DNA of 64,000 nucleotides, from NCBI RefSeq assembly GCF_003206715.1, contig NZ_PZJU01000006.1, forward strand, positions 1-64,000. Reading direction: 5' to 3'. The first letter of the stretch is position 1. Each line of letters starts with the position of its first letter. Positions 10,437 to 25,042 of the stretch are shown one piece after another. Below the pieces are notes generated by a model that saw nothing but the letters and a program-made list of their open reading frames with translations, was not told where the DNA came from and did not search any database. Source of the stretch: Salinicola peritrichatus (GTDB taxonomy: Bacteria > Pseudomonadota > Gammaproteobacteria > Pseudomonadales > Halomonadaceae). Both the position numbers and the translations under genes were made by a program.

Positions 10437-12807
10437 CTACTGGTCGCGAGCGACCTTGAGTCCGAAACGTAGTGCCGCATAGTCGGTATTGCTCTCCTCT
10501 CCGCGAGCGACGACGTCGACCGGTGCGAAATGCAGGTCGCGGTTGCTCGACGCCTCCAGTTGTGCCGGCTCCCCGCCCGAGATTTCGTTGATATTGAGAT
10601 TGACGATGTGGCTGTGCAGCGGAATCAGATTGCGTATCAGCCGAAATGCATGCCCGGGCTTGCGTCCTGACTTGCGTGCGTCGCTGATGGCGATGGCAGT
10701 CTTCACTCCCGGTGCCTCGATACGCAGGTCATTGATATCGAAGATCGCCACGCCGGCATAAGCGCGCAGTTGAACCAGCAATGGAATGACGCCGGCTGGC
10801 TGCTCGACCAGCGACTCGATCGCGCCTTCCTTCCAGCAGGCGTACTTGGCGCTATTGGTGCCGAGGGCGATGAGGACGTCGTTGTCCTTCGCCGGCTTGG
10901 TGTAGGTGAAGCGACAGCCATGGAAGTACTGGGCCTGGGCGTTGCTGTGATCGCGCATGTCGACGACGACGTCGCTGTGGTTGACGTTGCGATAGGTCAC
11001 ATTGGCCCAGGAGTCGACGATCACGCCACCGAAGCCTTCGCCTTCGTAGAGGAAGGCGCCGGTGTCGAGGGTCACGTCCTGCTCGAAATCCGGGTCCTCG
11101 AAACCCGCAAGGCGCCGGAACAGCGTCTTGCCGAGCCCAGGGCCGAATTTGGGCTCGGCGAATCTGGCGTGAATCGAGGCCGAGCTGGCGGTCTGCCGGG
11201 CGACGAAGTTCTTGATCACGTTGCCACGGGTCGCATAGAAGATCGAAATGCCGAAGTTGGCCGCGTTCTCGGCGTAGATGCCGTCGAACAGACAATAGGT
11301 GCAGCCTTCGAGATCGAACGCGGTATCGCTGACCTCCTTGGCGCTGCAGCCGAAGACCTTGACGTTGTGGGCGTTGTTGAAATAGATCGCACCGTTGGTC
11401 CAGCGGCAGTGCACGTCCTGAATGAAGCCGTCGCGCAGACGTCGCATCCATTTCAATTCTCCGCCCTTGCCCGGACGCGCCGAGCCCCCCCCAGCCGGAG
11501 ACGTTGCAGTAGTCCATATGGACATGGGAGATGCTGAAGTCGCGCACGAAATTCAGGCGTACGGCATTGGCGCGCTGGCTGTCTCCAGGACGATAGGTGT
11601 AGCGGCCGGCGCCGCCGGAGAGAGCGCTGATCCGGATCTTCTCGCTCAGGTCGTCCGGCGCGTCGGGGTTGAATCCGGCCAATACGGCGTTGTCGGTGCC
11701 TGGGTCCTCGTCGGCATCCTTGATCGAATAGCGCCCGTTGAGCTCCAACTCGTGGAAGATCTTGATCCCGCCGCAACGAACATGATGGTTGTCGCTGTAG
11801 GTGACGTTGCGAACACAGACCAGCGAGACGGCGCCACGCGCAAAGTCGGTTGCCTCGAAGGTCAGGCCGCTCAGGTGGATATCATGACTGAAAGCGTCGT
11901 CGAGGTTGCCGTCGGGACGGCCATCGGCCCAGACATTGACGACACGCTCCTCGCGCAGCAGCAGCAGGCCGTCGTTGAACGCCTCGGCGACGTAGTCGCT
12001 GACGATACGGCTATTGGCCTGGGCGCCATCGCCGACGATGCGAGTGCCGGAACGCAGCGCTATCCGTTGATCGCCGACATAGAGCCCGCTGCCGAAGGGT
12101 AGGTTGGGTAGATACTTGGTGCGATAGGGGGTTTTGTCGATGGTTTCCTGAAGCCATTTCGACTCGTCCGTGCCGCGACGCTCTTCCCCTTCGCTGGAGT
12201 AATCGGCACGAAAGCCGACCTTGAGCAGGTTGATGTCGTAACTGTGCTGGGTATAGGCCGCGCCATCCTCGCTCCAGACCACGAAGACATGGAAATCGTC
12301 GCGAGTCGGATGCGCCGCTTTCACCCAGGCCATCCCGCCGGCACGGGATTCGTCGTCGAGACTGGCGCTGCGCTGCAGCTCGATATTCAATTCATAGGGA
12401 AGGTCGCGATAGAAACTACGACAGATCAGGCGACAGCCATCCGGCACCTGATCGCCAGGCCAGGATTTCAGGGTGTCGACGGAGTCGAGCACGATCAGTC
12501 GCTGATTCAGTGCATGGCTCAACGACTGTGTGCCACTGGCGGAGTCCACGGCGGTTTGATCGAAAAACTGGGTGCCCAGGCGCTGCCGGGATTCGCCGTT
12601 GGCGACGTCGATGGCGTAGTGGCCGTTGGGCGCGGCGAACTGGATCTGGCCCTCCGGGCCCGCCTGAAAGGGATTGGCGAGCGGCTTCCCCTGGGCATCC
12701 TGGAGATTCCGTGCGGGGCTATCCTCTCCCTGGCGATAGACACTCACCTCCGCATGGGGAATGACCTTGCCGTCGGCGCTCTGGGCGAAGAAGGTTTTGA
12801 CTTCCAT
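10437..12807 (-). pseudogene. Tailspike-like right-handed beta-helix protein, frameshifted at a G8 tract
   Basis: Two overlapping minus-strand frames together encode one protein of about 790 residues. The 5' frame (from ATG 12807) has an N-terminal domain like phage tail fibre/tailspike attachment domains (MEVKTFFAQSADG; PLANPFQAGPEGQIQFAAPNG), then repeated short beta strands and asparagine turns of a pectate-lyase-type helix. At 11485-11492 eight Gs in the coding strand shift the frame. The sense reading continues in the next frame (MRRLRDGFIQDVHCRW onward) to the stop at 10437; the original frame reads on as nonsense. Removing one G restores the ORF. Such proteins bind or cut polysaccharides, fitting a role on the neighbouring capsule. 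It could be a decayed gene, a phase-variable gene or a sequencing error. Confidence 0.75.
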
Positions 12808-14036: not shown

Positions 14037-14184
14037 GACGGGCCTCTTGAGACTTTAGTCTAAGGAATGGATTGTACGCGCCCTAACGGACAGGCGCGAG
14101 TGTCGTGGCAGGGCAGCGGAGAAGTCCAGCGCCATTGCCCGAACGTTTCCAAGGCAGGGGAAAAGGCGTAAAGAAGCAGCAAAG

Positions 14185-14218
14185 AAAAAGCCGCTCGGTC
14201 ATGATGACTAAGCGGCTT
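14185..14218 (-). terminator. Rho-independent terminator downstream of the tRNA-Pro site
   Basis: Read on the minus strand, AAGCCGCT and AGCGGCTT pair around a 15-base loop and are followed by a run of Ts. It sits 12 bases after the tRNA 3' end, so it is the natural terminator of the original tRNA-Pro transcript. The rest of 14037-14184 shows no gene. Confidence 0.7.
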
Positions 14219-14230
14219 CTTCGTCGATCT

Positions 14231-14276
14231 TGGTCGGAGCGACAGGATTCGAACCTGCGACCTCTGCAACCCCATT
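14231..14276 (-). other. Left attachment site: 3' fragment of tRNA-Pro(GGG)
   Basis: Read on the minus strand this is the 3' part of a tRNA: anticodon loop ATGGGGT (U33, anticodon GGG, G37), the 3' anticodon stem, a variable loop, the T arm around GGTTCGAATCC, then the acceptor strand CGCTCCG, A and CCA. The 5' half is absent, so it is not functional alone. The identical 46 bp recur at 24997-25042. It is the left boundary of the satellite. Confidence 0.85.
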
Positions 14277-14405
14277 GCGTTTTATACGTATTTCAGGAGA
14301 AACGGGGAGAAACAAGAGTAACGATATTATCTGATTCAAATCAGTAATATAAAACAAATTTGTGGTTTCTCGTTGTTGCTTTCCTGCCCTTGTTATATCC
14401 TCATT

Positions 14406-14427
14406 CTGCTACCTATTTGCTACCTAG
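14406..14427 (+). repeat. Candidate integrase arm-type sites, left arm
   Basis: Two copies of TGCTACCTA, 11 bases apart, form a 22-bp unit that is repeated exactly at 24911-24932 near the other end of the satellite. Identical short direct repeats on both sides of the core are typical arm-binding sites for tyrosine integrases. The unit lies immediately before the integrase gene and could also affect its promoter. Apart from this, 14277-14439 holds AT-rich sequence without a visible gene. Confidence 0.5.
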
Positions 14428-14439
14428 AGCGGCGTGAAT

Positions 14440-15816
14440 ATGGCGCGGACGTTGAAGCTGACAGCAAAGGCGATGGATCAGTTGGCGAAGTCGCAACCGG
14501 ATGAAGACGTGTTTGATAGCGAGTTGCCCGGCTTCCACGTCCGCGCCGGTAAACGCGGATTGACCTTTCGGCTCTACTACCGGACCAAGGTTGGGAAACA
14601 GAGAATTCTCACACTTGGGCGATATGGCACGCTGACGGCCGCGCAGGCACGAGAGGACGCCAAGGAAGCATTGGCGATCGTCGCCCAAGGCGGCGACCCG
14701 CGAGGAATCCTTGAGGAAGCCAAGATCGAAAGCGCCCGCCAGCAGCAACAGACGCTTCGCGCTTACCTCGAAGGCCCTTATACCGCCTTCCAGAATCGCC
14801 GTAAGGATGGCCAAGGTACCTTGAGCCGGATCAGCCGGGACTTCTCCGATTGGCTTGACCGCCCGATGGGGAACCTGACCCGCGCCGATGTCGAGCGCTG
14901 GCAGGCCGATCAGGAAGTGAAGGAGAAGCCTCGCGCCTTCTCCACGCTGAAACGGAGCTACGACGCGCTGGCGGCCCTGCTGGCCCACGCGGCAGAGCGC
15001 AAGGTGATTCCCGTACACCCGCTGAAAGGGGTGAAGCTACAGAAGCCAGCCTTCACCGAGGAGGAACTGGCGGAGCTTGGCAGCGAACGTCGCTACCTTG
15101 AACCCCACGAAGTCGAAGCCCTGTTTGTCGGGATCGAGGCCTATCAGGATGAGAAGCGCCAGCAGCGCCGGCGCAGCCGCCAGCACGGGAAAGCCTACCT
15201 GCCCGACCTTGATCACGTGCCATACGTCGATCACGTCGTGCCGTGGATCCTGACGATGTTCTACACCGGCTTCCGCCCGGGCGACCTGTTTGGGCTGCGC
15301 TGGGAGCACATCAATCTGACCTTCGCCACGATTAGGAAAACGATCGAGAAGACTGCCCACAAGCGCCCCGAGCCACAGACTTTCCCGCTATCAGGTTCGG
15401 CTGTGGAAGTGCTCAAGACATGGCACAGGCAACAGGGGCAGCCGTCGGTGGGTCTCGTCTTCCCGAGCCCACGCACCGGCAAGCGCCTGGACCGGACGGC
15501 GATGCAAAAGCCGTGGGCGGCAGTGCGTAAGCTGGCGGAGCTTCCCGAGGATCTGCAGCTCTACACCTTGCGGCACAACTTCGCGAGCCAATTGGTCATG
15601 GCTGGCACCGATATTCTGACCGTCTCGAAGCTGATGGCCCACAGCAGCATCGAGACAACAATACAGTTCTATGCTCACTTGGCGCCGGAACACAAACGCG
15701 AAGCGGTCGAAGTGTTCGCGCGGCTGGCGGAAGGCAGAGAAGAAACCGCCGAACTGGCGGGAGAAGATGGCCCCGAGGTGATGAAGCACCCCAGGGCCGC
15801 ACATAACGGCAACTGA
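14440..15816 (+). CDS. int: Tyrosine recombinase integrase of the satellite
   Basis: A 458-aa P4-type integrase: N-terminal arm-binding domain (DUF4102-like, residues 1-90), SAM-like core-binding domain (about 105-195) and catalytic domain. Catalytic residues are visible: Arg in TGFRPGDLFGL, the LYTLRHNFAS box (Arg and His), the LMAHSSIETTIQFY box with His and the nucleophile Tyr. It would integrate and excise the element at the tRNA-Pro site next to it. GTG 14434 is an alternative start; neither has a clear ribosome site. Confidence 0.93.
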   Translation: MARTLKLTAKAMDQLAKSQPDEDVFDSELPGFHVRAGKRGLTFRLYYRTKVGKQRILTLGRYGTLTAAQAREDAKEALAIVAQGGDPRGILEEAKIESARQQQQTLRAYLEGPYTAFQNRRKDGQGTLSRISRDFSDWLDRPMGNLTRADVERWQADQEVKEKPRAFSTLKRSYDALAALLAHAAERKVIPVHPLKGVKLQKPAFTEEELAELGSERRYLEPHEVEALFVGIEAYQDEKRQQRRRSRQHGKAYLPDLDHVPYVDHVVPWILTMFYTGFRPGDLFGLRWEHINLTFATIRKTIEKTAHKRPEPQTFPLSGSAVEVLKTWHRQQGQPSVGLVFPSPRTGKRLDRTAMQKPWAAVRKLAELPEDLQLYTLRHNFASQLVMAGTDILTVSKLMAHSSIETTIQFYAHLAPEHKREAVEVFARLAEGREETAELAGEDGPEVMKHPRAAHNGN

Positions 15817-15832
15817 CAAAGGAGATGCCGAA

Positions 15833-16123
15833 ATGCACAGCAAGTCTACCACTCACACCGTCACGCTGGCCCGAACAGGGACACAGCAAGAAGTCACCGC
15901 CGAGACCTGGCGGGATGCCTTGCGCGTCGTCGGGCAGCCTGATGCCTGCGTCGTCGAGCACACCGGCGAACGCTCCTGCCGTATCAGCTTTGATCCGGAA
16001 GATCCGCAAATCCTCGAAGTTCGCACGCGGGATGGCGAGCTATCAGAAGTCGTGCGCTGGGGGCTGGATAACGTGGTTCACCATCTGGACATGGCGATTT
16101 CCCTGCAGGAGGTGCGGGCATGA
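15833..16123 (+). CDS. Satellite hypothetical protein
   Basis: A 96-aa acidic protein with AAGGAG upstream of ATG 15833, 16 bases after the integrase stop. No known domain is evident; it is mostly beta-strand-like with a short C-terminal helix. Its stop overlaps the next start (ATGA), so it is part of an early operon. Confidence 0.65.
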   Translation: MHSKSTTHTVTLARTGTQQEVTAETWRDALRVVGQPDACVVEHTGERSCRISFDPEDPQILEVRTRDGELSEVVRWGLDNVVHHLDMAISLQEVRA

Positions 16124-16425
16124 ATGTGATCAAAGAAAGTGTCGAAATGCCGGACAAGGCTAGCACCACAGATATTCTGATGGGCTACCGGGCTGCAATG
16201 AGTGGAGCAGCGGATGAAATAGACAAGGCGATGCTGGGGCAGAGGGCCATTATCAAATTGCTTCAGGATACGAACATCGACCTCAACGGTTTTCATAAAG
16301 AAGGGCTTTTGGCTGCACTTGATATTCTCGCTGATAGTGTGGCGTGTCGAGGTTGGCGCTTGATGGAATGTCTCGACGAACATGCCGAGCAGCTTGGCTG
16401 CGCACGTTATGACGATCGGGACTGA
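16120..16425 (+). CDS. Satellite hypothetical protein, helical
   Basis: A 101-aa, mostly helical acidic protein with no recognised motif. It is translationally coupled to the gene before it (4-base overlap). After it, 16438-16465 holds an imperfect GC-rich hairpin before the next gene. Confidence 0.6.
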   Translation: MNVIKESVEMPDKASTTDILMGYRAAMSGAADEIDKAMLGQRAIIKLLQDTNIDLNGFHKEGLLAALDILADSVACRGWRLMECLDEHAEQLGCARYDDRD

Positions 16426-16489
16426 CGCCGTTCATCGGCCGGCGCGTGCTTGAAGGCGCGTCGGCACTTTCATTCATTGGGGAGCGCTG

Positions 16490-17128
16490 ATGAACCATCA
16501 TATGCCTCGAGGATCAGGCGTACTGCCACTAAATTCTGAGCGGCAGGATAGACTGGTACGGCTATTCAGCAAATGGGAGCGCAATAAGCCAGATGATCCC
16601 GAGAAGTTGGCAGAAGATATTGACCATACCTGCGCCTGGATCGAGTTTGAGGAACAGGAGTTCGGCACCGATCTGACCGCCGGCGAATACCGGGCGGCAG
16701 TGGCACACTATCGGGACTGTCTCGATCGCGCGCGAGAGGCACTGAGAGAACTCCCACCACCAGCCGCACAAATAATGGCTCAAAACGCCGCATTCTACAT
16801 CGACCCGTTGGGAGAGGTTGGGAGTATCATTCCGCTTCAAACGGCCTTGACGGGCCATGATGCACTGCTTCGAATGTTATCCAGCCTAGCCAATGACTAC
16901 CTGGAGAATCACGCACCAGAGCCTCGAAAGCGCCCTCGATACGACCTGAAGAAGATCAGAGCCATTGCCAACGTATGTGAAGATCACGGCATCACGGTGG
17001 GGCAGTCTGACCGCGGGCATTTCCCGGAAATAGTTGCAGCAGCAATTCCCACGGCTGCTGTGGATGGGCATCGCGATAAAATCCGGCAAGCGTTCGGCTT
17101 GGGGAAATACGCCCACGATAATGAGTAA
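16490..17128 (+). CDS. Satellite hypothetical protein
   Basis: A 212-aa protein with GGGGAG ahead of ATG 16490. Highly charged and helical, with no membrane segment and no recognised domain. Its place between the integrase and AlpA-like genes suggests an early, DNA-related or regulatory role, but nothing in the sequence proves that. Confidence 0.62.
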   Translation: MNHHMPRGSGVLPLNSERQDRLVRLFSKWERNKPDDPEKLAEDIDHTCAWIEFEEQEFGTDLTAGEYRAAVAHYRDCLDRAREALRELPPPAAQIMAQNAAFYIDPLGEVGSIIPLQTALTGHDALLRMLSSLANDYLENHAPEPRKRPRYDLKKIRAIANVCEDHGITVGQSDRGHFPEIVAAAIPTAAVDGHRDKIRQAFGLGKYAHDNE

Positions 17129-17202
17129 AATCCCCCCGCGAGATAATTTGGGGCGGCAGCCAACATTGAAGGCGTCATCAAGCAGACATAAGGACGCCTT
17201 CG

Positions 17203-17511
17203 ATGTACGTAGATATTGGTTACCAACCGCAAGTATTGGCGAGCGCTCTCGCTCGTTACCGCGACGGATTCGACCCGACTCTGATTGAGCTGCCCGAATC
17301 CGCTGTTTTCCCCCACCTCATCCCGGTGCAGCCGGCTACGGCTCGCAAGGCCCGCACTACTGGCCGCTTGCTGGGTAAGCCTGCCCCTCGCTTCGTCAAG
17401 CACGGCCGAACCGTACGCTACCGCCTCAAGGATGTATTCGACTGGCTGGCTGAAGGTGACGCCTACACCAGCACTGCCGAAGCCGCAATGTCTCAGGAGA
17501 TGGCGTCATGA
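17203..17511 (+). CDS. AlpA/MerR-type helix-turn-helix regulator
   Basis: A 102-aa protein whose C-terminal half (about residues 57-85: LLGKPAPRFVKHGRTVRYRL, then KDVFDWL) is the excisionase/AlpA winged-helix signature in which the RYR strand precedes the second recognition element. In phage satellites AlpA proteins activate transcription of the excision or integrase region, and related proteins act as Xis. This is the best candidate for the satellite's induction or excision switch, since no CI-like repressor is seen. Confidence 0.75.
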   Translation: MYVDIGYQPQVLASALARYRDGFDPTLIELPESAVFPHLIPVQPATARKARTTGRLLGKPAPRFVKHGRTVRYRLKDVFDWLAEGDAYTSTAEAAMSQEMAS

Positions 17512-17783
17512 GCCTCGAAAGAAAAATCATGATCAACGATTACACCGACGAGCTCGAAAAGCTTTCATTGGCATCCGAAGACCTGCTACAGGCCGCCGCG
17601 CTGTTTAGAGCTGTCGAGGCCATGATCGAGAAAGACCCGTTCGATCCAGCAGCCAAGCGGATCGCAAAGGCCGGGCGCCAGATGGCGGAGCGTCGATCGG
17701 AATACTTCGAAGACGAGGCTGGCGCGCTGGAGGCCACAATCTCGCAGCTTGAAGCGGAAGAGGAGGCAGAATCATGCGAGTAG
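17508..17783 (+). CDS. Satellite hypothetical protein, coiled coil
   Basis: A 91-aa acidic, wholly helical protein. ATG 17508 overlaps the stop of the AlpA-like gene; ATG 17529 is a possible alternative. No domain recognised. It overlaps the next gene by 10 bases. Confidence 0.6.
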   Translation: MSLERKIMINDYTDELEKLSLASEDLLQAAALFRAVEAMIEKDPFDPAAKRIAKAGRQMAERRSEYFEDEAGALEATISQLEAEEEAESCE

Positions 17784-18055
17784 AAACGAAAAAACCCGGC
17801 CTCTCCCCAGGCCGGGCTCATTCGAATACTGTTGCTGAACTTGATCCTACCACCCAGACGGGACGAGTGCTAGAGGCGCTGAGGCGCCATCCGATGAGCG
17901 CCGCTGAATTGCAGTGGGATTTACGAATCGCCCACGCGCCAGCAGCGATCAGAGACCTGCGCAATCGGGGCTTCACCATCGTTACGGAATGGCACCCGCA
18001 ACCTGCAAAGCCCAAGGCCAAGATCAAGCGCTATCGTCTGGTCGAGACCGAGTAG
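17774..18055 (+). CDS. Small winged-helix DNA-binding protein
   Basis: A 93-aa protein with a compact helix-turn-helix (about 31-70: TGRVLEALRRHPMSAAELQ, then a helix and RGFTIVTEW wing). GAGGAGG precedes ATG 17774. Its first codons span a GC-rich inverted repeat at 17797-17817 that would read as an intrinsic terminator on the minus strand. Role unknown; a transcription regulator is likely. Confidence 0.65.
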   Translation: MRVETKKPGLSPGRAHSNTVAELDPTTQTGRVLEALRRHPMSAAELQWDLRIAHAPAAIRDLRNRGFTIVTEWHPQPAKPKAKIKRYRLVETE

Positions 18056-18060
18056 CTGGC

Positions 18061-18091
18061 GCGAGGGTGTCGTGAAACACGACGCCCTCGC
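18061..18091 (+). repeat. Long intergenic hairpin
   Basis: GCGAGGG and GTCGTG pair with CACGAC and CCCTCGC around an AAA loop, 13 base pairs with one mismatch. It ends just before the AGGAGG ribosome site of the next gene. There is no T-run, so it may affect mRNA stability or translation rather than termination. Confidence 0.55.
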
Positions 18092-18107
18092 CTCCTAGGA
18101 GGATGGC

Positions 18108-18509
18108 ATGGCGAAGAAGAAGCGCGATCGGGTAGCTGCGCCCGGCGGCTTCCTCGCACTGCCCAAGCTACTGATGGAGCAGCGGGACTTCCGCGAGTTG
18201 TCACCGTCTGCCCTGAAAGTGCTGATAGTGCTGGGAAGCCAGTACAACGGCCGCAACAACGGCAATCTGGCCGCCACTCATTCGATGATGGATGTGTGGG
18301 GCGGCATGGCCAAGGCAACGCTGGCCAAGTCGCTGAGGGAGCTGCAAGACCGCAACCTGATCAGCAAGACTCGAGAGAATCGGCGTGGCCGAGAAGGTGC
18401 CCGCTGTGCGCTGTTCGCGCTCACGTGGCACACCATCGACGATTGTCCGGGTAAGGATCTGGACGTGGTGCCGAGCATCATCCCACAGCGAAGGTTGTCC
18501 CAGGCCTGA
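18108..18509 (+). CDS. Winged-helix protein, possible replication or regulatory protein
   Basis: A 133-aa protein with a helix-turn-helix core (about 34-90: LSPSALKVLIVLGSQYNG, then a SLRELQDRNLI recognition segment) like the N-terminal domains of phage replication initiators and helix-turn-helix regulators. No primase or helicase gene is present in the satellite, so this is the only candidate for an initiator. The iteron-like repeats right after it (18571-18660) would suit either role. Strong AGGAGG ribosome site. Confidence 0.6.
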   Translation: MAKKKRDRVAAPGGFLALPKLLMEQRDFRELSPSALKVLIVLGSQYNGRNNGNLAATHSMMDVWGGMAKATLAKSLRELQDRNLISKTRENRRGREGARCALFALTWHTIDDCPGKDLDVVPSIIPQRRLSQA

Positions 18510-18844
18510 ACAGATTGTTCACCTCTTTCGACCCGCCCTTGAGGCGGGTCGATTTTCACCGCGTTCAAAATTTGCCACCCACGGTGGCAAAAAATGAACC
18601 CTTATCCAGTTGAGGATGCTGCCACCTTTAAATAAGGGTTCAAAAAATGAACCCTTATCCGGGATTTTCGATTTTTACCGCGTTCAATAATTGGACACCC
18701 TTCTAGAGTTACCACCCTGTGGGGGTTTGAAGGTGATTACGAGTCACTTTTAAAACACCTATGCAACGATATATCATTGCGTCTATGGTGGATATTCGTA
18801 CAGTGCCACCAGCCCAACCCGACACCGCCACAAGGTGAATCATC
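18510..18844 (+). promoter_or_regulatory. Repeat-rich control region ahead of the capsid operon
   Basis: This 335-base gap holds several ordered signals: a perfect inverted repeat TTTGCCACC/GGTGGCAAA (18571-18591); a 19-bp direct repeat containing AATGAACCCTTATCC at 18589-18607 and 18642-18660; an 11-bp inverted repeat ATAAGGGTTCA/TGAACCCTTAT (18632-18658); and a near-palindrome of 18 bp centred on GATATATC (18763-18780). A weak promoter-like pair TTGAAG (18727) and TAAAAC (18751) lies between. It could be a replication origin, the late-promoter control region, or both. Confidence 0.5.
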
Positions 18845-20062
18845 ATGAAATTGAGTGCCCTACGTGAGCAGCGTTCCGCCAAGGTCGCCGCCATGAAAAA
18901 CCTGGTCGAAACCGCCTCCAACGAAGGGCGCGACCTGACCGCTGACGAAACCCAGAACTTCGACGCCCTCAAGGCCGAGGAGCGCAACCTGGTCGGCCAA
19001 ATCGAGCGAGCCGAGTATGTGGCCGATGCCGAGCGCCGCAGTGTCGCCACGCCCGTGAACAACGAAGCTGGCGGCGATCTGGACAAGCTGGCGCGTCAGG
19101 TCAGCGTGGTGAAGGTGATGCGCGCCCAGATGGAAGGACGATCACTTGACGGCGCCGAACGCGAGTACAGCCAGGAAGCCGAACGCCGATCGGGTCGCAA
19201 AGCTCAAGGCGCGTTCATTCCAATGCAGGCGCTCGAGACCCGTGCCAACGAGACCAGCACCGCCAGCCAGATTGTGCCGGTGCAGCATCGCCCCCAGGAC
19301 TACATCGGCGCGCTGCGTAATCGCCTGCTGGCTCGCAGTCTGGGCGTTCGCGTGCTGTCCGGCCTTTCCGGTGATGTCGCTATTCCCAAGTACGGCACCG
19401 GGCTGGCTACCGGCTGGGTGACGGAAGGCCAAGCGGTGCCCGAAGGCCAAATGTCGTTTGGTGACGTGAAGCTGACGCCCAAGCACGTGGGCGGCAAGAC
19501 GGAGATGTCCCGTCAGCTCATCCAGCAGTCGAGCCCGGACATCGAGGAGCTGGTGCGCAGTGACTTGACCGCACTGATCGCCGAGCAAATCGACCGCGCC
19601 ATCCTCGCCGGTACCGGGACCGATGGCGAGCCGACCGGCATCCTCAATGCCGCTGGCATCCAGACCGCCAACCTGCCGAGCGACTGGGCAGGCGTACTGG
19701 GTCTGTCCGAGTTGCTGGAACTGGCCAACCTCGAGGCGATCAACTGGCTGGCGGCGCCGGGGATCAAGACCACTTACGCCAGCACCGAGAAGGTGCCGGG
19801 CAGCGGCTCCGGCTTCCTGCTGCAAGGTGGCCGGATGGACGACAAGCCGTTCAACGTCACCAACCAGATGCCGACCGATACCCTGCTGCTGGGCGACTTC
19901 AGCCAGGTGATGCTGGGGATCTGGTCGGAGCTCGACATTCTGGTCAACCCGTATGCCGAGCCGGCCTACAGCCGTGGCGGTGTTCAGGTGCGCGCGATGG
20001 CGACCGCCGATGTGGCGATTCGCCACCCGCAAGGCTTCGTTGTCGCCAAGCCGGAAGCCTGA
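18845..20062 (+). CDS. Major capsid protein, HK97 family
   Basis: A 405-aa HK97-fold coat protein. The first roughly 110 residues are a helical, charged delta/scaffold domain, to be removed by the protease encoded next. The mature part follows with typical segments: PKYGTGLATGWVTEGQAVPE, KHVGGKTEMSRQL, DRAILAGTGTDGEPTGILN and a C-terminal ADVAIRHPQGFVV strand. It opens the head operon, with AAGGTG upstream of ATG 18845. Confidence 0.95.
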   Translation: MKLSALREQRSAKVAAMKNLVETASNEGRDLTADETQNFDALKAEERNLVGQIERAEYVADAERRSVATPVNNEAGGDLDKLARQVSVVKVMRAQMEGRSLDGAEREYSQEAERRSGRKAQGAFIPMQALETRANETSTASQIVPVQHRPQDYIGALRNRLLARSLGVRVLSGLSGDVAIPKYGTGLATGWVTEGQAVPEGQMSFGDVKLTPKHVGGKTEMSRQLIQQSSPDIEELVRSDLTALIAEQIDRAILAGTGTDGEPTGILNAAGIQTANLPSDWAGVLGLSELLELANLEAINWLAAPGIKTTYASTEKVPGSGSGFLLQGGRMDDKPFNVTNQMPTDTLLLGDFSQVMLGIWSELDILVNPYAEPAYSRGGVQVRAMATADVAIRHPQGFVVAKPEA

Positions 20063-20064
20063 TC

Positions 20065-20586
20065 ATGGAAGTGCGCGCCAGCAACGAGATGAAGCCCCAG
20101 GGGCGCAAGCTGACCGGCTATGTGTCCCGCTTCAACGAGCCTGCCGATCTGGGCGAGTTCGTCGAGGTCGTTCGGCCTGGCGCGTTCACTCGCACGCTGG
20201 GCGACCCGAGAGCCCGCAACATCCGCGCCATCTACGAGCATGACGGCCGCGCCCTGCTGGGGAGAGTAGGTGCCGGCAGTCTGAGGCTGGCGGAAGATGC
20301 CGCTGGGCTCGCCTTCGAGATCGACCTACCCGATACCACGCTGGGCCGGGACCTAGCGGCACTGGTCACGCGCGGCGACGTGGCCGGCTGTTCGTTCGGC
20401 TTCCTGCCGGTGCGGGATCGCTGGATCGAGGAGAACGGGCGCCCGGTGCGTGAGCTGCTGGACGTTGACCTGTTCGAGGTGACGGTAACGGCGGCACCCG
20501 CCTATGACGCCTCGAGCGTTCAGGTTCGCCATACCCAACACCGTGCCATTCGCTTGGCCCGGCTCTACCTGGAGGCCTGCCAGTGA
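20065..20586 (+). CDS. HK97-type prohead protease
   Basis: A 173-aa serine protease of the HK97 gp4 (herpesvirus-type) fold. YEHDGRALLGR (His59) and GDVAGCSFGF (Ser110) are the expected catalytic neighbourhoods. It matures the capsid by removing the delta domain. It starts 2 bases after the capsid stop and overlaps the portal start. Confidence 0.92.
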   Translation: MEVRASNEMKPQGRKLTGYVSRFNEPADLGEFVEVVRPGAFTRTLGDPRARNIRAIYEHDGRALLGRVGAGSLRLAEDAAGLAFEIDLPDTTLGRDLAALVTRGDVAGCSFGFLPVRDRWIEENGRPVRELLDVDLFEVTVTAAPAYDASSVQVRHTQHRAIRLARLYLEACQ

Positions 20587-21752
20587 AGCTTTTCCGACGC
20601 CGCACCGAGAAGCGGGCCGACGCCTACGACCGTTACTGGGACAAGGTGGCGGCCGTTCAGGACGTAGCCGGCGTGAACGTGACGCCATCCAGCGCCGAGG
20701 GTATTTCCGCCGTCTATGCCGCCGTGGCAGCCATTTCCGAGAGCGTGGCGAGCCTGCCTCTCGACATCTACCGGCGCACGGAGGATGGCCGGGAGAAAGC
20801 CCGCTCCCATCCGCTGTACAAGGTGCTGCACACCGAGCCCAACTCGAAGCAAACCGCGCTCGAGTTCCGCGAGATGATGCAGCGCCACGTGCTGCTGAGG
20901 GGCAATGCCTATGCCGAGATCCAGTGGAATCGTGCCGGGCGCGTCGAGGCGCTGCTACCGCTGCACCCTGATCGCGTGAGCGTGCTGCTGACCGACGATG
21001 ATTCACTGATCTACGAGGTGAGCGATCGACGCGGCAACATCCGCCGGCTGCTGGCCGAGGAGGTGCTGCACCTTCGCTACCACACCGATGACGGGATCAT
21101 GGGAAGAAGCCCCATTCAGGTCGCGCGCGACACCGTGGGGCTAGCACTGGCCGAGCGCACGCACGGGGAACGGATGTTCGCCCAGGGCACCAAGCTATCC
21201 GGAGTGATCCAGACGCAAGCTGGCACCACCAAGCAGCAGGCCGGCGACATTCGGGAGAGCTGGGCGGCTGGCTATGGCGGCGTGGGTAGCCATGGCAAGA
21301 CCGCCGTCCTTCCTGCTGGCGCCGAGTTCAAGACCGTCAGCATGACGCTGGAGGATGCCGAGTGGATCGAGGCCCGCCGGATGAGTGTCGAGGAGGTGGC
21401 GCGCCTGTTCCGCGTGCCGCCTGTCCTGATCGGGGATCTGCGAGAGGCCAACTACTCCAACGCCGTGGAGCTGGGCCGGTACTTCGTGACGCACACGCTG
21501 CGCCGGCACCTGGTGATGTGGGAGCAGGCGGCGGGCCGATCGTTGATCAACGACCCGGCCACCTTCTACGCCGAGCACAACGTGGAAGGGCTGCTGCGCG
21601 GCGATAGCCTCAAGCGCGCCCAGTTCTACCAGCGCTCGATCGAGGACGGCTGGATGATGCGTTCAGAGGTTCGTCGCCTGGAGAACCTGCCTACCGTGGA
21701 GGGTATCGACGATGCGCCCCGTCAAGAAGCAGCGCCGCGTACCGCTGAGTAG
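20583..21752 (+). CDS. Phage portal protein, HK97 family
   Basis: A 389-aa portal (GTG start overlapping the protease stop). Family features include AVYAAVAAISESVASLPLDI near residues 38-57, the YAEIQWNRAGRVEALLPLHP stretch, and MSVEEVARLFRVPPVLIGDL near 267-286. It forms the dodecameric DNA channel at one capsid vertex. It overlaps the HNH gene by 41 bases. Confidence 0.93.
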   Translation: MKLFRRRTEKRADAYDRYWDKVAAVQDVAGVNVTPSSAEGISAVYAAVAAISESVASLPLDIYRRTEDGREKARSHPLYKVLHTEPNSKQTALEFREMMQRHVLLRGNAYAEIQWNRAGRVEALLPLHPDRVSVLLTDDDSLIYEVSDRRGNIRRLLAEEVLHLRYHTDDGIMGRSPIQVARDTVGLALAERTHGERMFAQGTKLSGVIQTQAGTTKQQAGDIRESWAAGYGGVGSHGKTAVLPAGAEFKTVSMTLEDAEWIEARRMSVEEVARLFRVPPVLIGDLREANYSNAVELGRYFVTHTLRRHLVMWEQAAGRSLINDPATFYAEHNVEGLLRGDSLKRAQFYQRSIEDGWMMRSEVRRLENLPTVEGIDDAPRQEAAPRTAE

Positions 21753-22044
21753 CGCGGCATGGCGCAAGCTGCGTGCCCAAGTGCTCGCAGAGGAGCCGCT
21801 GTGTCGACAGTGCGTGGCGCTGGGCATCGTCACCCCGGCTACTGATGTCGACCACATCGACAACGCCGAGGGCGACTACACGGACGACAACAGCCGCGAG
21901 AACCTGCAGCCACTGTGCCACGAGTGCCACTCACGCAAGACGATGGCAGAGACCCAAGGCCGCGGCGCGACCGTCATCGGATGCGACACGAGTGGAATGC
22001 CGCTCGACCCGGACCACCCGTGGCGAAAAATCACCAGCAACTGA
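21712..22044 (+). CDS. HNH endonuclease of the packaging module
   Basis: A 110-aa HNH nuclease: CRQC, then TDVDHIDNAEGDYTDD, NLQPLCHECHSRKT, giving the zinc knuckles and the HNH catalytic His residues. In HK97-type phages and cf-PICIs an HNH protein encoded beside the terminase is needed for cos cleavage and packaging. The element is therefore predicted to be a cos-type packager. Confidence 0.9.
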   Translation: MRPVKKQRRVPLSSAAWRKLRAQVLAEEPLCRQCVALGIVTPATDVDHIDNAEGDYTDDNSRENLQPLCHECHSRKTMAETQGRGATVIGCDTSGMPLDPDHPWRKITSN

Positions 22045-22089
22045 CCCGGCCCACACCGCCGCCAAAGGTCGCTTTTATCGGTAACTGCC

Positions 22090-22551
22090 ATGAAATCCAC
22101 GCCACGCCGACACCGATCCGACAGCGCTAAGGCCGCTGTGACGGCTGCCCAGGCCGCCTCTATGGGGCCGCTCGAGCCGCCGGCATTCGTGCGCGTGCGA
22201 GACCGTGACCGCCCGGCGTGGGACGCCATCGTGACCGCTCGAGCGCGTGACACGTGGACAGAAGCCGACCTGATGCTGGCGGCGCAACTGGCCCGCGCCT
22301 ATGGCGACATCGCGGAGCTGGAGGCCTACATCGACGAGAACGGCATGATTCTAGGCGATCAAATCAACCCGGCCTGCACGCTGCTGGACAAGGTGAGCCG
22401 GCGAGCATTGGCGATGGCCCGCCAACTCAAGGTCGACACGATCAGCGTGGTGGGCAAGTCGCAGGATATCCACAAGGGTGCGGCACTCGAGCGTGGCGCC
22501 CGCCAGGGTATCGACGATGACGACGACCTGATTCCGAGGGCGCTGCAATGA
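22090..22551 (+). CDS. terS: Terminase small subunit, P27 family
   Basis: A 153-aa protein with the P27 TerS pattern: AWDAIVTARARDTWTEADL, the helical LARAYGDIAELEAYIDENG and LDKVSRRALAMARQL. It would recognise the satellite's own cos/pac site. It overlaps terL by 4 bases. Confidence 0.85.
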   Translation: MKSTPRRHRSDSAKAAVTAAQAASMGPLEPPAFVRVRDRDRPAWDAIVTARARDTWTEADLMLAAQLARAYGDIAELEAYIDENGMILGDQINPACTLLDKVSRRALAMARQLKVDTISVVGKSQDIHKGAALERGARQGIDDDDDLIPRALQ

Positions 22552-24044
22552 CCCGCGCCGATCGCGTGATTCGCTTCATCGAGCGCTACTGCGTCACGCC
22601 TGAAGGTGCAGGCGTGGGCAAGCCGATGGTGCTGGCGGACTTCCAACAGCAGTTCATCCGCGACATCTACGACAACCCGGCCGGCACACGGCGCGCGATC
22701 CTGTCGGTGGGCCGCAAGAACGGCAAGACCGGGCTGATCGCCGCCCTGCTACTGGCCCACCTGGTGGGCCCCGAGGCGAAGCAGAATAGCCAGCTCGTCT
22801 CCGGCGCCCTGAGCCGCGATCAGGCGGCGCTGGTATTCAACCTAGCGTCCAAGATGGTGCAGCAGTCGGCGGAGCTTTCGCGCATCGTGAGGATTGTGCC
22901 CAGTGGCAAGCGCCTCATAGGGCTGACGATGAATACGGAGTTCAAGGCGCTGGCGGCCGATGGCAAGACGGCGCACGGCCTGTCGCCGGTGCTGGCCATC
23001 CTCGACGAGGTGGGCCAGGTGCGCGGGCCACAGTCCGACTTCGTGGACGCGATCACTACCAGCCAGGGCGCCCACGAAAGCCCGTTATTGATCACGATCA
23101 GCACGCAGGCGGCGAACGATGCCGACCTGCTGAGCCAGTGGATCGACGACGCGTTGCGCTCGAAAGACCCGCGCACCGTCTGCCGACTCTACGCCGCGCC
23201 CGAAGGCTGCGACCTGATGGACGAGGAGGCGTGGAAGGCTGCCAATCCAGCGCTTGGCATCTTCCGCAGTCAGGACGATATGCGCGAGCAGATGGCGCAG
23301 GCCGAACGGATGCCGAGCATGTCGAACACCGCGCGCAACCTGCTGCTGAATCAGCGCGTGAGCCTGGATAGCCCGTTCATCAGCCCGGACGTGTGGGCCG
23401 GCTGCGCCGAGACGCCCGAGCCATTCGATGGCCCGGTCTATGGCGGGCTAGACCTGTCGGCTCGAACCGACCTCACCGCGCTGGTGCTGGTGGGCAAGGT
23501 CGGCGGCGTGTGGCAAGTGCGGCCTTACTTCTGGACGCCAGAGCAGGGGTTATTCGACCGCTCCAAGGCTGACCGCGCCCCCTATGACGTGTGGGCGCGC
23601 TCCGGACTGCTTCGCACCACGCCCGGCGCCACCGTGGACTATGAGGCAGTGGCCGCCGAGCTGGCGGACATCCTGCAGGACGTGGATCTGCACGCGCTGG
23701 CCTTCGACCGCTGGCGCATCGACATCTTCCGTAAGGAGCTGGACCGGCTGGGCATCGAGCTACCACTGGTCCCTCACGGCCAAGGCTTCCGAGACATGGC
23801 GCCGGCACTCGATGCCCTGGAGGCGGAGCTACTGAACGGCCGCATCGCCCACGGCAATCACCCGGTGCTGACGATGTGCGCGGCCAACGCCGTCGCCGTC
23901 ACCGATCCGGCCGGCGCCCGTAAGCTGGACAAGTCGCGGCGAACCGGCCGCATCGACGGCATTCAGGCGCTGGCGATGGCAATGGGCGCCGCCCAGGGGG
24001 CCGAGGAGCCCGCCGATATCGAAACCGAGGTGTATTTCATATGA
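22548..24044 (+). CDS. terL: Terminase large subunit
   Basis: A 498-aa packaging motor. ATPase Walker A SVGRKNGKTG (about 53-62), Walker B LAILDEVG (about 149-156), and a C-terminal RNase-H-like nuclease beginning YGGLDLSARTDLTALVLVG (about 302-320). It is somewhat shorter than many HK97-type TerL proteins but all motifs are present. Confidence 0.94.
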   Translation: MTRADRVIRFIERYCVTPEGAGVGKPMVLADFQQQFIRDIYDNPAGTRRAILSVGRKNGKTGLIAALLLAHLVGPEAKQNSQLVSGALSRDQAALVFNLASKMVQQSAELSRIVRIVPSGKRLIGLTMNTEFKALAADGKTAHGLSPVLAILDEVGQVRGPQSDFVDAITTSQGAHESPLLITISTQAANDADLLSQWIDDALRSKDPRTVCRLYAAPEGCDLMDEEAWKAANPALGIFRSQDDMREQMAQAERMPSMSNTARNLLLNQRVSLDSPFISPDVWAGCAETPEPFDGPVYGGLDLSARTDLTALVLVGKVGGVWQVRPYFWTPEQGLFDRSKADRAPYDVWARSGLLRTTPGATVDYEAVAAELADILQDVDLHALAFDRWRIDIFRKELDRLGIELPLVPHGQGFRDMAPALDALEAELLNGRIAHGNHPVLTMCAANAVAVTDPAGARKLDKSRRTGRIDGIQALAMAMGAAQGAEEPADIETEVYFI

Positions 24045-24322
24045 CGACCGTCACGCTGCAGGAAGCAAAGGACCATTTACGAATCCTCGAGGATGACGAG
24101 GACGCTTACATTACCGGGCTGCTGGCAGCCGCTGAGGGCCACGTAGCCGGCTACCTTGGCGATGACCTGCCCGAGCCGATGCCGGCGCCTGTGCGCGCCG
24201 CCGTCCTTCTGCTGGTCGGCGACCTGTACGAGCATCGCGAGCGGCAGAACGATCGGGCGCTGTACGAGAACGCCACGTTTCATCTGCTGCTGAACCCCTA
24301 CCGATCGCACGAGGTGCTGTGA
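24041..24322 (+). CDS. Head-tail connector, gp6-like
   Basis: A 93-aa protein of the HK97 gp6/SPP1 gp15 family: TLQEAKDHLRILEDDEDAYI followed by LLAAAEGHVAGYLG and a C-terminal helix with LVGDLYEHRE. It forms the ring under the portal. It overlaps terL and the next gene by 4 bases each. Confidence 0.88.
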   Translation: MTTVTLQEAKDHLRILEDDEDAYITGLLAAAEGHVAGYLGDDLPEPMPAPVRAAVLLLVGDLYEHRERQNDRALYENATFHLLLNPYRSHEVL

Positions 24323-24648
24323 TGCGAGCGGGCAAGCTGCGACACCTGGTGACGATCCAGAACTTCAGCCAGACCCAGAACCAATATGGCGAGGTGATAA
24401 CCGAGTGGATCGACGGCCCACGTATCCGCGCCAGTGTCGAGCCGCTGCGTGGGCGTGAATACTTCGCCGCAGCGCAGGTGAACGCGGAGACGACCTATCG
24501 CGTCCGATGCCGCTATCACCCGGAGCTGGCGACCGGTAACGCTACAAGCAAGCGCCTCACAGTACAGGGCATGATGTTCGAGATCGAGGCTGTGCTGGAC
24601 GTGGAGCTGAAACACGAGTGGATGGAGATCATCTGCCATACGAGGTAG
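24319..24648 (+). CDS. Head closure protein (head-tail adaptor)
   Basis: A 109-aa beta-barrel head-completion protein with the family start MMRAGKLRHLVTIQ and the EPLRGREYFAAAQ segment. It is the last gene of the satellite. In a siphophage, neck and tail genes would follow here; instead a terminator and the right att site do. Confidence 0.88.
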   Translation: MMRAGKLRHLVTIQNFSQTQNQYGEVITEWIDGPRIRASVEPLRGREYFAAAQVNAETTYRVRCRYHPELATGNATSKRLTVQGMMFEIEAVLDVELKHEWMEIICHTR

Positions 24649-24733
24649 GAACCCGCAGCCAGTGCGGTCCCAAGAGGGAATAGACTGGCCGGGGATCAGT
24701 CGGACAGTGCCCCGATCGAGCAAAACCCCGACA

Positions 24734-24767
24734 GCCGGCAGGCGCAGTTCCTCGCGCCGTGGCCGGC
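24734..24767 (+). terminator. Terminator-like hairpin ending the satellite head operon
   Basis: GCCGGC pairs with GCCGGC and inner GGCGC with GCGCC, followed by an AT-rich tail (atctcttatttt). In the rest of 24649-24945 I see no gene; it also holds a perfect 11-bp inverted repeat GGGTTTTACGA/TCGTAAAACCC at 24819-24845. Confidence 0.6.
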
Positions 24768-24910
24768 ATCTCTTATTTTCTGCAAACCATTGAAAAGCAA
24801 TAATTCCTGCACAGGTCGGGGTTTTACGAAGGTCTCGTAAAACCCATCAAACGGTGGGATTTTCGGCACTACCCTCGAAAGCGCCTTTCGTTGCTACCTG
24901 TTGCCCGCCA

Positions 24911-24932
24911 CTGCTACCTATTTGCTACCTAG
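24911..24932 (+). repeat. Candidate integrase arm-type sites, right arm
   Basis: An exact copy of the 22-bp unit at 14406-14427, again two TGCTACCTA sites 11 bases apart; a further TTGCTACCT lies at 24891-24899. It is about 65 bases from the right att core, as expected for an attP arm. Confidence 0.5.
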
Positions 24933-24945
24933 TCGCTAAGCAACG

Positions 24946-24985
24946 AAAAACCGCCACCCGGCATGATCCGTAAGTGGCGGTTTTT
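24946..24985. terminator. Bidirectional terminator beside the right att site
   Basis: A perfect 12-bp stem AAAAACCGCCAC/GTGGCGGTTTTT with runs of A and T on both sides. On the minus strand it would end the tRNA-Pro transcript, replacing the chromosomal terminator (14185-14218) when the satellite is integrated. Confidence 0.75.
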
Positions 24986-24996
24986 ACTAGCCATTC

Positions 24997-25042
24997 TGGT
25001 CGGAGCGACAGGATTCGAACCTGCGACCTCTGCAACCCCATT
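24997..25042 (-). other. Satellite/prophage junction att site: second tRNA-Pro(GGG) 3' fragment
   Basis: Identical for 46 bp to 14231-14276. Beyond it the sequence does not continue into a tRNA 5' half, so this copy is also incomplete. It therefore is the right end of the satellite and the left end of the next element. Confidence 0.85.

Follow-up and report, generated by a model that had tools for sequence, protein, structure and literature searches.

The window analysed here comprises the first 64,000 nucleotides of contig NZ_PZJU01000006.1 of the halophilic bacterium Salinicola peritrichatus (assembly GCF_003206715.1). At 14231-25042 it contains an integrated element which, with a probability that we put at about 0.82, is a phage satellite working like a capsid-forming phage-inducible chromosomal island (cf-PICI). 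New here are a 133-residue protein (g8) with adjoining dyad repeats, a changed pairing of cos site and terminase small subunit (TerS), and a head closure protein that is replaced in three of six bounded elements. Two open questions on capsid-forming satellites become testable: how replication proceeds without a primase-helicase, and how self-packaging is kept apart from a helper that shares the cos core.

Gene content and bounds of the element

All 16 genes of the element were scanned against Pfam and 10 of the 16 against PHROGs (Table 1). Pfam families were obtained for an integrase, HTH_39, HK97 capsid, S78 protease, portal, HNH, terminase large subunit (TerL, both domains), gp6 connector and head-completion protein. 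TerS scored 24.4 bits, just below the Pfam cut-off of 24.7, and its PHROGs match was clear (E 2.6e-35). These searches bore out the first-pass annotation, made from the letters of the window, which had listed an integrase, small regulators and a full HK97-type head and cos-packaging set up to the closure protein. Neither tail genes nor a primase or helicase family were found in these scans; the lack of tail genes had been claimed in that annotation, and 998 bp remain between the TerL stop and the right attachment (att) end. PMC10690885 defines cf-PICIs as encoding capsid, maturation protease, portal, head-tail connectors, TerS, TerL and HNH, all of which were present in the element, as was integration at a specific att site with an integrase of its own. 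Where PICIs have AlpA or Stl as regulators, the HTH_39 protein and a weak excisionase-like protein were all that was detected, with no AlpA family in Pfam at 0.01; among relatives (loci with L numbers), L068 carried an int-alpA RNA and L040 and L041 excisionase-like regulators.

The element of 10.8 kb lies between identical 46-bp direct repeats (14231-14276 and 24997-25042) that are copies of the tRNA-Pro(GGG) 3' end. The tRNA gene itself lies intact at contig 82288-82364 on the minus strand. Three such att copies stand in tandem, therefore two elements, the 10.8-kb element and a prophage of ∼57 kb, occupy one tRNA gene in tandem. The first-pass annotation had given the two repeats with the correct identity and bounds and had miscounted the copies, the third lying in the intact tRNA; its gene list was right, and it had not recognised the tandem prophage, the cos site or the repeat array, or how large the family is. 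Repeats similar to the 22-bp pair of Table 1 were present inside both ends of L038 and L039. A hairpin with a T-run was seen by eye after each tRNA 3'-end copy (14150-14230, 24930-24990 and L006:230-287), as though the tRNA regained a terminator with every insertion.

Relatives with the same tail-less layout

A set of 275 genomes of the bacterial family was searched with the window TerL, giving matches in 51, own genome included. Besides the own genome, five matched at 90-92% identity and four at 62-68%; the remaining matches were at 37% or below, with the single exception of a stretch of 63 residues at 43%. In each of the five closest relatives the block that begins with g8 and runs through the gp6 connector recurred, within a bounded element (10.4-10.8 kb). 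The first-pass annotation had named tailed relatives, or a lack of relatives with its 10-11 kb layout, as findings that would speak against it; relatives of that layout were present and tail genes were not seen in them. Its cf-PICI reading is thus supported both by gene content and by the same tail-less block in five relatives, and its guess of a Halomonas-like host is consistent with the named relatives Vreelandella, Halomonas and Billgrantia. No prior description of a Halomonas phage satellite was found in the open-access literature searched.

Three attachment targets were used by the one shared block. The window element, L038 and L039 were in tRNA-Pro(GGG) with related integrases (82-84% identity of the window integrase to the other two), L040-L042 were in tRNA-Ser(UGA) with a different integrase, and the metagenomic element L064 was at ssrA, its structural proteins being 91-96% identical, with no match to the window integrase. 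The distance from TerL stop to right att end was 746-998 bp across the six bounded elements, and 10 of the unmatched left-hand genes of L039-L042 yielded no tail family and only two excisionase/DNA-binding families; the lack of tail genes in relatives was judged by this space and these 10 genes, not gene by gene throughout. The control HK97-type prophages L043-L046 (TerL 62-68%) had the order HNH-TerS-TerL-portal, unlike the satellites, and in the two scanned of the four (L044, L046) the closure gene was followed by Neck1, tail terminator, major tail protein and tail chaperone. The ratio of nonsynonymous to synonymous substitution rates (dN/dS) against L064 was 0.03-0.14 in 9 of 9 genes compared, indicating purifying selection, and against L040 it reached 0.20 (HNH). 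At L067:232-6009 the same capsid block was accompanied by a TerL of just 33% identity, and TerS had no match; the terminase appears to have been exchanged.

Capsid lineage

The window capsid matched 204 of 50,697 phage records, none of them at 60% identity or above; the window TerL was 60-80% identical in 39 of these 50,697 records, HK97, HK022 and HK446 being among the matches listed. A quick tree of 56 capsids placed the 34 from satellite-type loci in one branch with a Shimodaira-Hasegawa-like approximate likelihood ratio test (SH-aLRT) value of 98, the label having been assigned by capsid match and seven such elements having been checked to both ends. Neighbours of this branch were VP882, phiHAP-1 and similar phages. 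Outside it fell 21 phage or prophage capsids, HK97 included, and that of the cf-PICI type element EcCIEDL933, which we take to be Sp7 (CP-933C) of E. coli Sakai; Sp7 and some others were long branches. About 900 published cf-PICI capsids exist according to PMC13230959, and since these were not in the comparison, the lineage may already be published by sequence.

The cos site and its terminase

The joined ends of HK97 read ACCGCCGCC-N13-AACGCTAAC. Between the HNH and TerS genes of the window, at 22055-22085, an exact ACCGCCGCC-N13-AWCGSTAAC was located, which was reproduced in 0 of 100 shuffles even with 2 mismatches; the pattern was matched in 86 IMG/VR stretches. As described in PMC11331095, the HK97 small terminase binds cos +15 to +29; in the C:G pair at 21 the G is contacted by Arg128, and detectable binding is lost when this pair is swapped. 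Most satellites had G at cos position 21 and Gln or Glu at the residue aligned to Arg128; HK97-type phages and the satellites L068 and L072 had Arg with C. The 71 distinct TerS/site combinations comprised Arg/C (47, mostly near-identical HK97-type phages), Gln/G (19), Glu/G (2), Arg/G (1, L118) and 2 that were unread, residue and base agreeing in 68 of the 69 readable ones. This count leaves out 9 of 110 loci, in which cos was unreadable or the match was short (L095, L098 and L102 agree by eye), and many rows had been fetched via a cos pattern that leaves base 21 free. Because a changed cos base is matched by a changed terminase residue, the alignment suggests that satellites and HK97-type phages share a cutting core and use separate packaging addresses.

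g8 and its repeat array

The first-pass annotation had remarked that, without a primase-helicase, the replication strategy may differ. This was supported in outline, an O-like protein with a repeat array standing at that place. g8 matched phage replication-initiation (O-like) PHROG families weakly (best E 1.9e-4), Pfam gave just weak regulator and RepA_N matches, and four of the top six structural matches (Z < 8) were titled initiator, Rep-DNA complex or N-terminal domain of a DNA-binding protein. Relatives of g8 were located in 42 IMG/VR loci, in 35 of 390 genomes of the order and in 1 of 50,697 phage records, where it is annotated as replication protein O and followed by a primase. That 16-kb record, PP003913.1 (Pseudomonas phage vB_Pae_U1), contains integrase, cox, g8 relative and primase with no annotated capsid or tail genes and may be a satellite deposited as a phage; no prior description of vB_Pae_U1 was found in the open-access literature searched.

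Three dyad repeat matches were counted in the window, and 0 of 100 shuffles had three. Arrays downstream of g8 often contained four dyads with spacings of 22, 52-63 and 44, and at least three copies were present in 26 of 45 distinct g8 loci, as against 1 of 225 shuffles. The repeat sequence varied between elements, in step across the sites. Lys at g8 residue 69 accompanied G at the outer repeat base and Glu accompanied C in all 20 usable rows, among them the window. Of 28 order loci, 10 had been dropped for a broken or short frame, rows with fewer than three half-sites or another residue were uncounted, one tie (L113) was dropped, and L128 counts as weak, with a single C and no G. Between L084 and L085, 8 of 121 aligned g8 residues differ, three of them in the helix of residue 69, and the outer repeat bases differ at most half-sites in surrounding DNA that is otherwise similar. 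It is likely that g8 binds the array, and the array is more likely a replication origin than an operator; we read g8 and its repeats as a putative lambda-O-like replicon in place of a primase-helicase.

Four-copy arrays followed g8 in L088 and L089, with no match to the window capsid set in the stretch examined. L082 and L091, first read as capsid-less, carry different HK97-fold capsids, which weakened the use of capsid-less relatives as proof of a replication role for g8. Two proteins of L103 were HSDR_N and NYN; a scan of five proteins from L105 and L089 gave one HTH_39 and no match for the other four. For the arrays of L103 and L105, a looser look gave four copies and the controlled count only two.

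Exchange of the closure gene

Hc1 was present in the window element, L038 and L041. An 80-85-residue protein took its place in L039, L040 and L042, from whose whole genomes PF05521 was absent. The replacement protein had no Pfam match above cut-off and no match in the 50,697 phage records; it was predicted as a helical hairpin with a predicted local distance difference test score (pLDDT) of 68, and it recurred in three IMG/VR loci, two with this capsid block and the third (L076) with a matching TerS. Since known cf-PICIs take helper tails, the last neck gene would be a natural place for helper adaptation, and its exchange points to the part that may set the choice of helper tail.

A Proteo-phage-1 RNA (RF03044) was observed after the closure gene in the window, L038, L041, L064 and L072, all with Hc1, and was not detected in L039, L040, L042 and L076, all with the replacement protein. 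The RNA exceeded the cut-off in 8 of 275 family genomes, with three of the 8 having it at these satellites, and was rejected as satellite-specific; it was not named in the open-access literature searched. C4 antisense RNA was seen in the regulatory region of L040, L041, L042, L064, L066 and L070, with none in the window element at E 1.

Proposed cycle and alternative explanations

During growth of a tailed helper phage in the cell the satellite would excise. Binding of g8 to the adjoining array would start replication, for which the host or the helper would supply the helicase. The satellite terminase would then cut its own cos and fill the satellite head with ∼10.8 kb, and the closed head would be completed with a helper tail. 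Tentatively, and with somewhat less than even confidence, the elements could form a gammaproteobacterial lineage of capsid-forming satellites that combines an O-like initiator and multi-repeat origin, an altered cos/terminase address and a change of helper tail via the last neck gene. The variants that occur naturally, Lys or Glu in g8 alongside G or C in the repeats and Arg, Gln or Glu in TerS alongside C or G in cos, lend themselves directly to experiments on specificity.

A defective HK97-type prophage that had lost its tails and was decaying would account for the phage-like nature of every structural gene and for the 65-66% identity between TerL and the HK97 protein. That all nine genes compared with L064 are under purifying selection argues that the element is not a decayed prophage, and with the tail-less layout of 10.4-10.8 kb in six bounded elements, the order capsid-protease-portal-terminase that differs from L043-L046, and the separate branch of satellite capsids, decay is very improbable; it was rejected on selection, layout and gene order. 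It is improbable too that the helper is the podovirus-like prophage in tandem in the same tRNA: it adjoins the satellite at the same attachment site, has an S24-type repressor and looks inducible, but its portal is of SU10 type, belonging to a different head-tail system, and it is long-tailed phages that typically have closure proteins of the PF05521 kind. For g8 and its repeats, a control switch for the head operon, with all replication done by the helper, is the rather unlikely alternative to an origin. In the window and closest relatives the array is followed shortly by the capsid gene, winged helix-turn-helix proteins are often repressors, and the Pfam matches of g8 are weak ones to regulators and RepA_N; against this, in the more distant L085 and L087 the array is within ∼160 bp of g8 and the capsid gene 1.0-1.2 kb beyond g8, the four-copy arrays of L088 and L089 come without a match to this capsid set (L082 and L091 being counterexamples), and the PHROG matches are to replication initiators.

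Several observations weigh against a functioning satellite with these parts. It is known here from sequence, and 12 IMG/VR capsid loci (11 contigs whole, L063 in part) had no exact terminal repeats as of a circle. A resident helper was not found: the own genome has one PF04860 portal, that of the satellite, and no PF10145 tape measure, so that no siphophage helper was found in the families searched; across the six satellite genomes PF04883 occurred in 0 and PF05521 in satellites only, other tail families not having been searched. Against L038, dN/dS was higher (Hc1 0.35, capsid 0.30). The PHROG matches of g8 are weak, its predicted model has a pLDDT of 55, and its fold matches stay at Z < 8; its co-variation with the repeats amounts to 3 changes fitting the tree, two of them forced by supported branches, with which no significance is reachable. 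The TerS/cos co-variation comprises 2-4 independent changes (the two unread rows treated as non-Arg in the change and pair counts), for which a sign test cannot reach significance, and is therefore given as a pattern and not as a significance test. L118 has Arg with G21 and L173, a 41-kb contig that is perhaps a full phage, has Glu with G21; therefore the changed cos address is not exclusive to satellites.

Neighbouring DNA and coordinates

The tandem podovirus-like prophage of ∼57 kb extends from window 25043-64000 on to contig 82288, in the same tRNA-Pro, and encodes a lambda-type integrase, DnaB-like helicase, terminase, SU10-type portal, S24 repressor and proteins of 1290 and 2564 residues. 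Outside the element, on the minus strand at 10437-12807, a pair of overlapping frames looks like a frameshifted tailspike-like gene; one of them has a weak beta-helix match that falls slightly short of its cut-off.

Table 1. Features of the element with window coordinates
Feature	Position	Strand	Evidence
att repeat, left copy (tRNA-Pro(GGG) 3' end)	14231..14276		exact 46-bp repeat
Direct repeat inside left end, probable integrase arm site	14406..14427		exact 22-bp repeat with 24911-24932
Tyrosine integrase, 460 aa	14434..15816	+	PF00589 5.4e-24, Arm-DNA-bind_3
Three small genes of unknown function, 96, 101, 212 aa	15833..17128	+	open reading frames; no Pfam match at 0.01
Possible excisionase/regulator, 102 aa	17203..17511	+	phrog_66 E 0.0098 (weak); 84-88% in L038, L039
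Small gene of unknown function, 91 aa	17508..17783	+	matches in L038, L040, L041, L042
HTH_39 regulator, 93 aa	17774..18055	+	PF14090 2.6e-12
g8, 133-aa winged-helix, lambda-O-like putative replication initiator	18108..18509	+	phrog_678/270 E ∼2e-4; fold search; co-variation with repeats
Dyad repeat array (putative origin)	18585..18698		three copies within 3 mismatches; four in many relatives
HK97-fold major capsid protein, 405 aa	18845..20062	+	PF05065 2.8e-32; tree
Prohead protease (S78)	20065..20586	+	PF04586 3.2e-43
Portal protein	20583..21752	+	PF04860 2.8e-103
HNH endonuclease (packaging)	21712..22044	+	PF01844 5.8e-7
HK97-type cos site (cleavage core and changed TerS-binding segment)	22055..22085	+	exact match to ACCGCCGCC-N13-AWCGSTAAC
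Terminase small subunit, Gln at HK97 Arg128 position	22090..22551	+	phrog_5601 2.6e-35; alignment
Terminase large subunit, ∼65-66% to HK97	22548..24044	+	PF20441/PF03354
gp6-like head-tail connector	24041..24322	+	PF05135 1.1e-13
Head closure/head completion protein Hc1	24319..24648	+	PF05521 3.6e-27; phrog_25 1e-23
Proteo-phage-1 RNA (Rfam RF03044)	24653..24736	+	80.4 bits vs gathering score 42
Second copy of 22-bp end repeat, probable arm site	24911..24932		exact repeat
att repeat, right copy	24997..25042		exact 46-bp repeat

Comparison with known systems

Sp7/EcCIEDL933 resembles the window element in having its own capsid, protease, portal, adaptor, TerS and TerL, with no annotated tail gene in the half seen, and in an order that starts capsid-protease-portal (protease 44%, portal 38%). 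Its capsid is unlike that of the window, with no tblastn match at 1e-3 and a position on a long branch outside the satellite branch, its TerL is only 28% identical, and its adaptor and connector stand before the terminase, whereas they follow it in the window element. Sp7 has a P4-alpha-like replication gene according to PMC3378721, where the window element has the 133-residue g8 and repeats. The window element lacks a replication gene of the primase-helicase type, a feature that may define PICIs rather than cf-PICIs. The Vibrio cf-PISP (TG54), as presented in PMC13230959, is a capsid-forming satellite with maintenance and replication genes unlike those of the type elements, as here, but is plasmid-like, with parA/repA and no integrase, and the window element is integrated. 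In PMC10690885, the Streptomyces satellites MulchRoom and MiniFlayer have their own capsid and packaging genes and no obvious replicase, as here; they differ in direct terminal repeats and virulent helpers, and no significant homology to cf-PICIs is reported there.

HK97-type phages share with the window element the cos core at identical spacing and a TerL of 65-66% identity, and differ in their tails, terminase-before-portal order, Arg128/C21 in place of Gln/G21 and another capsid branch. The C4 antisense RNA, presumably the P4 immunity RNA, is common to P4-like satellites and several relatives of the window element, and not to the window element itself. P4 uses helper capsids, and P4-like satellites, having no capsid of their own, remodel that of the helper; the window element, unlike these, carries its own capsid and portal.

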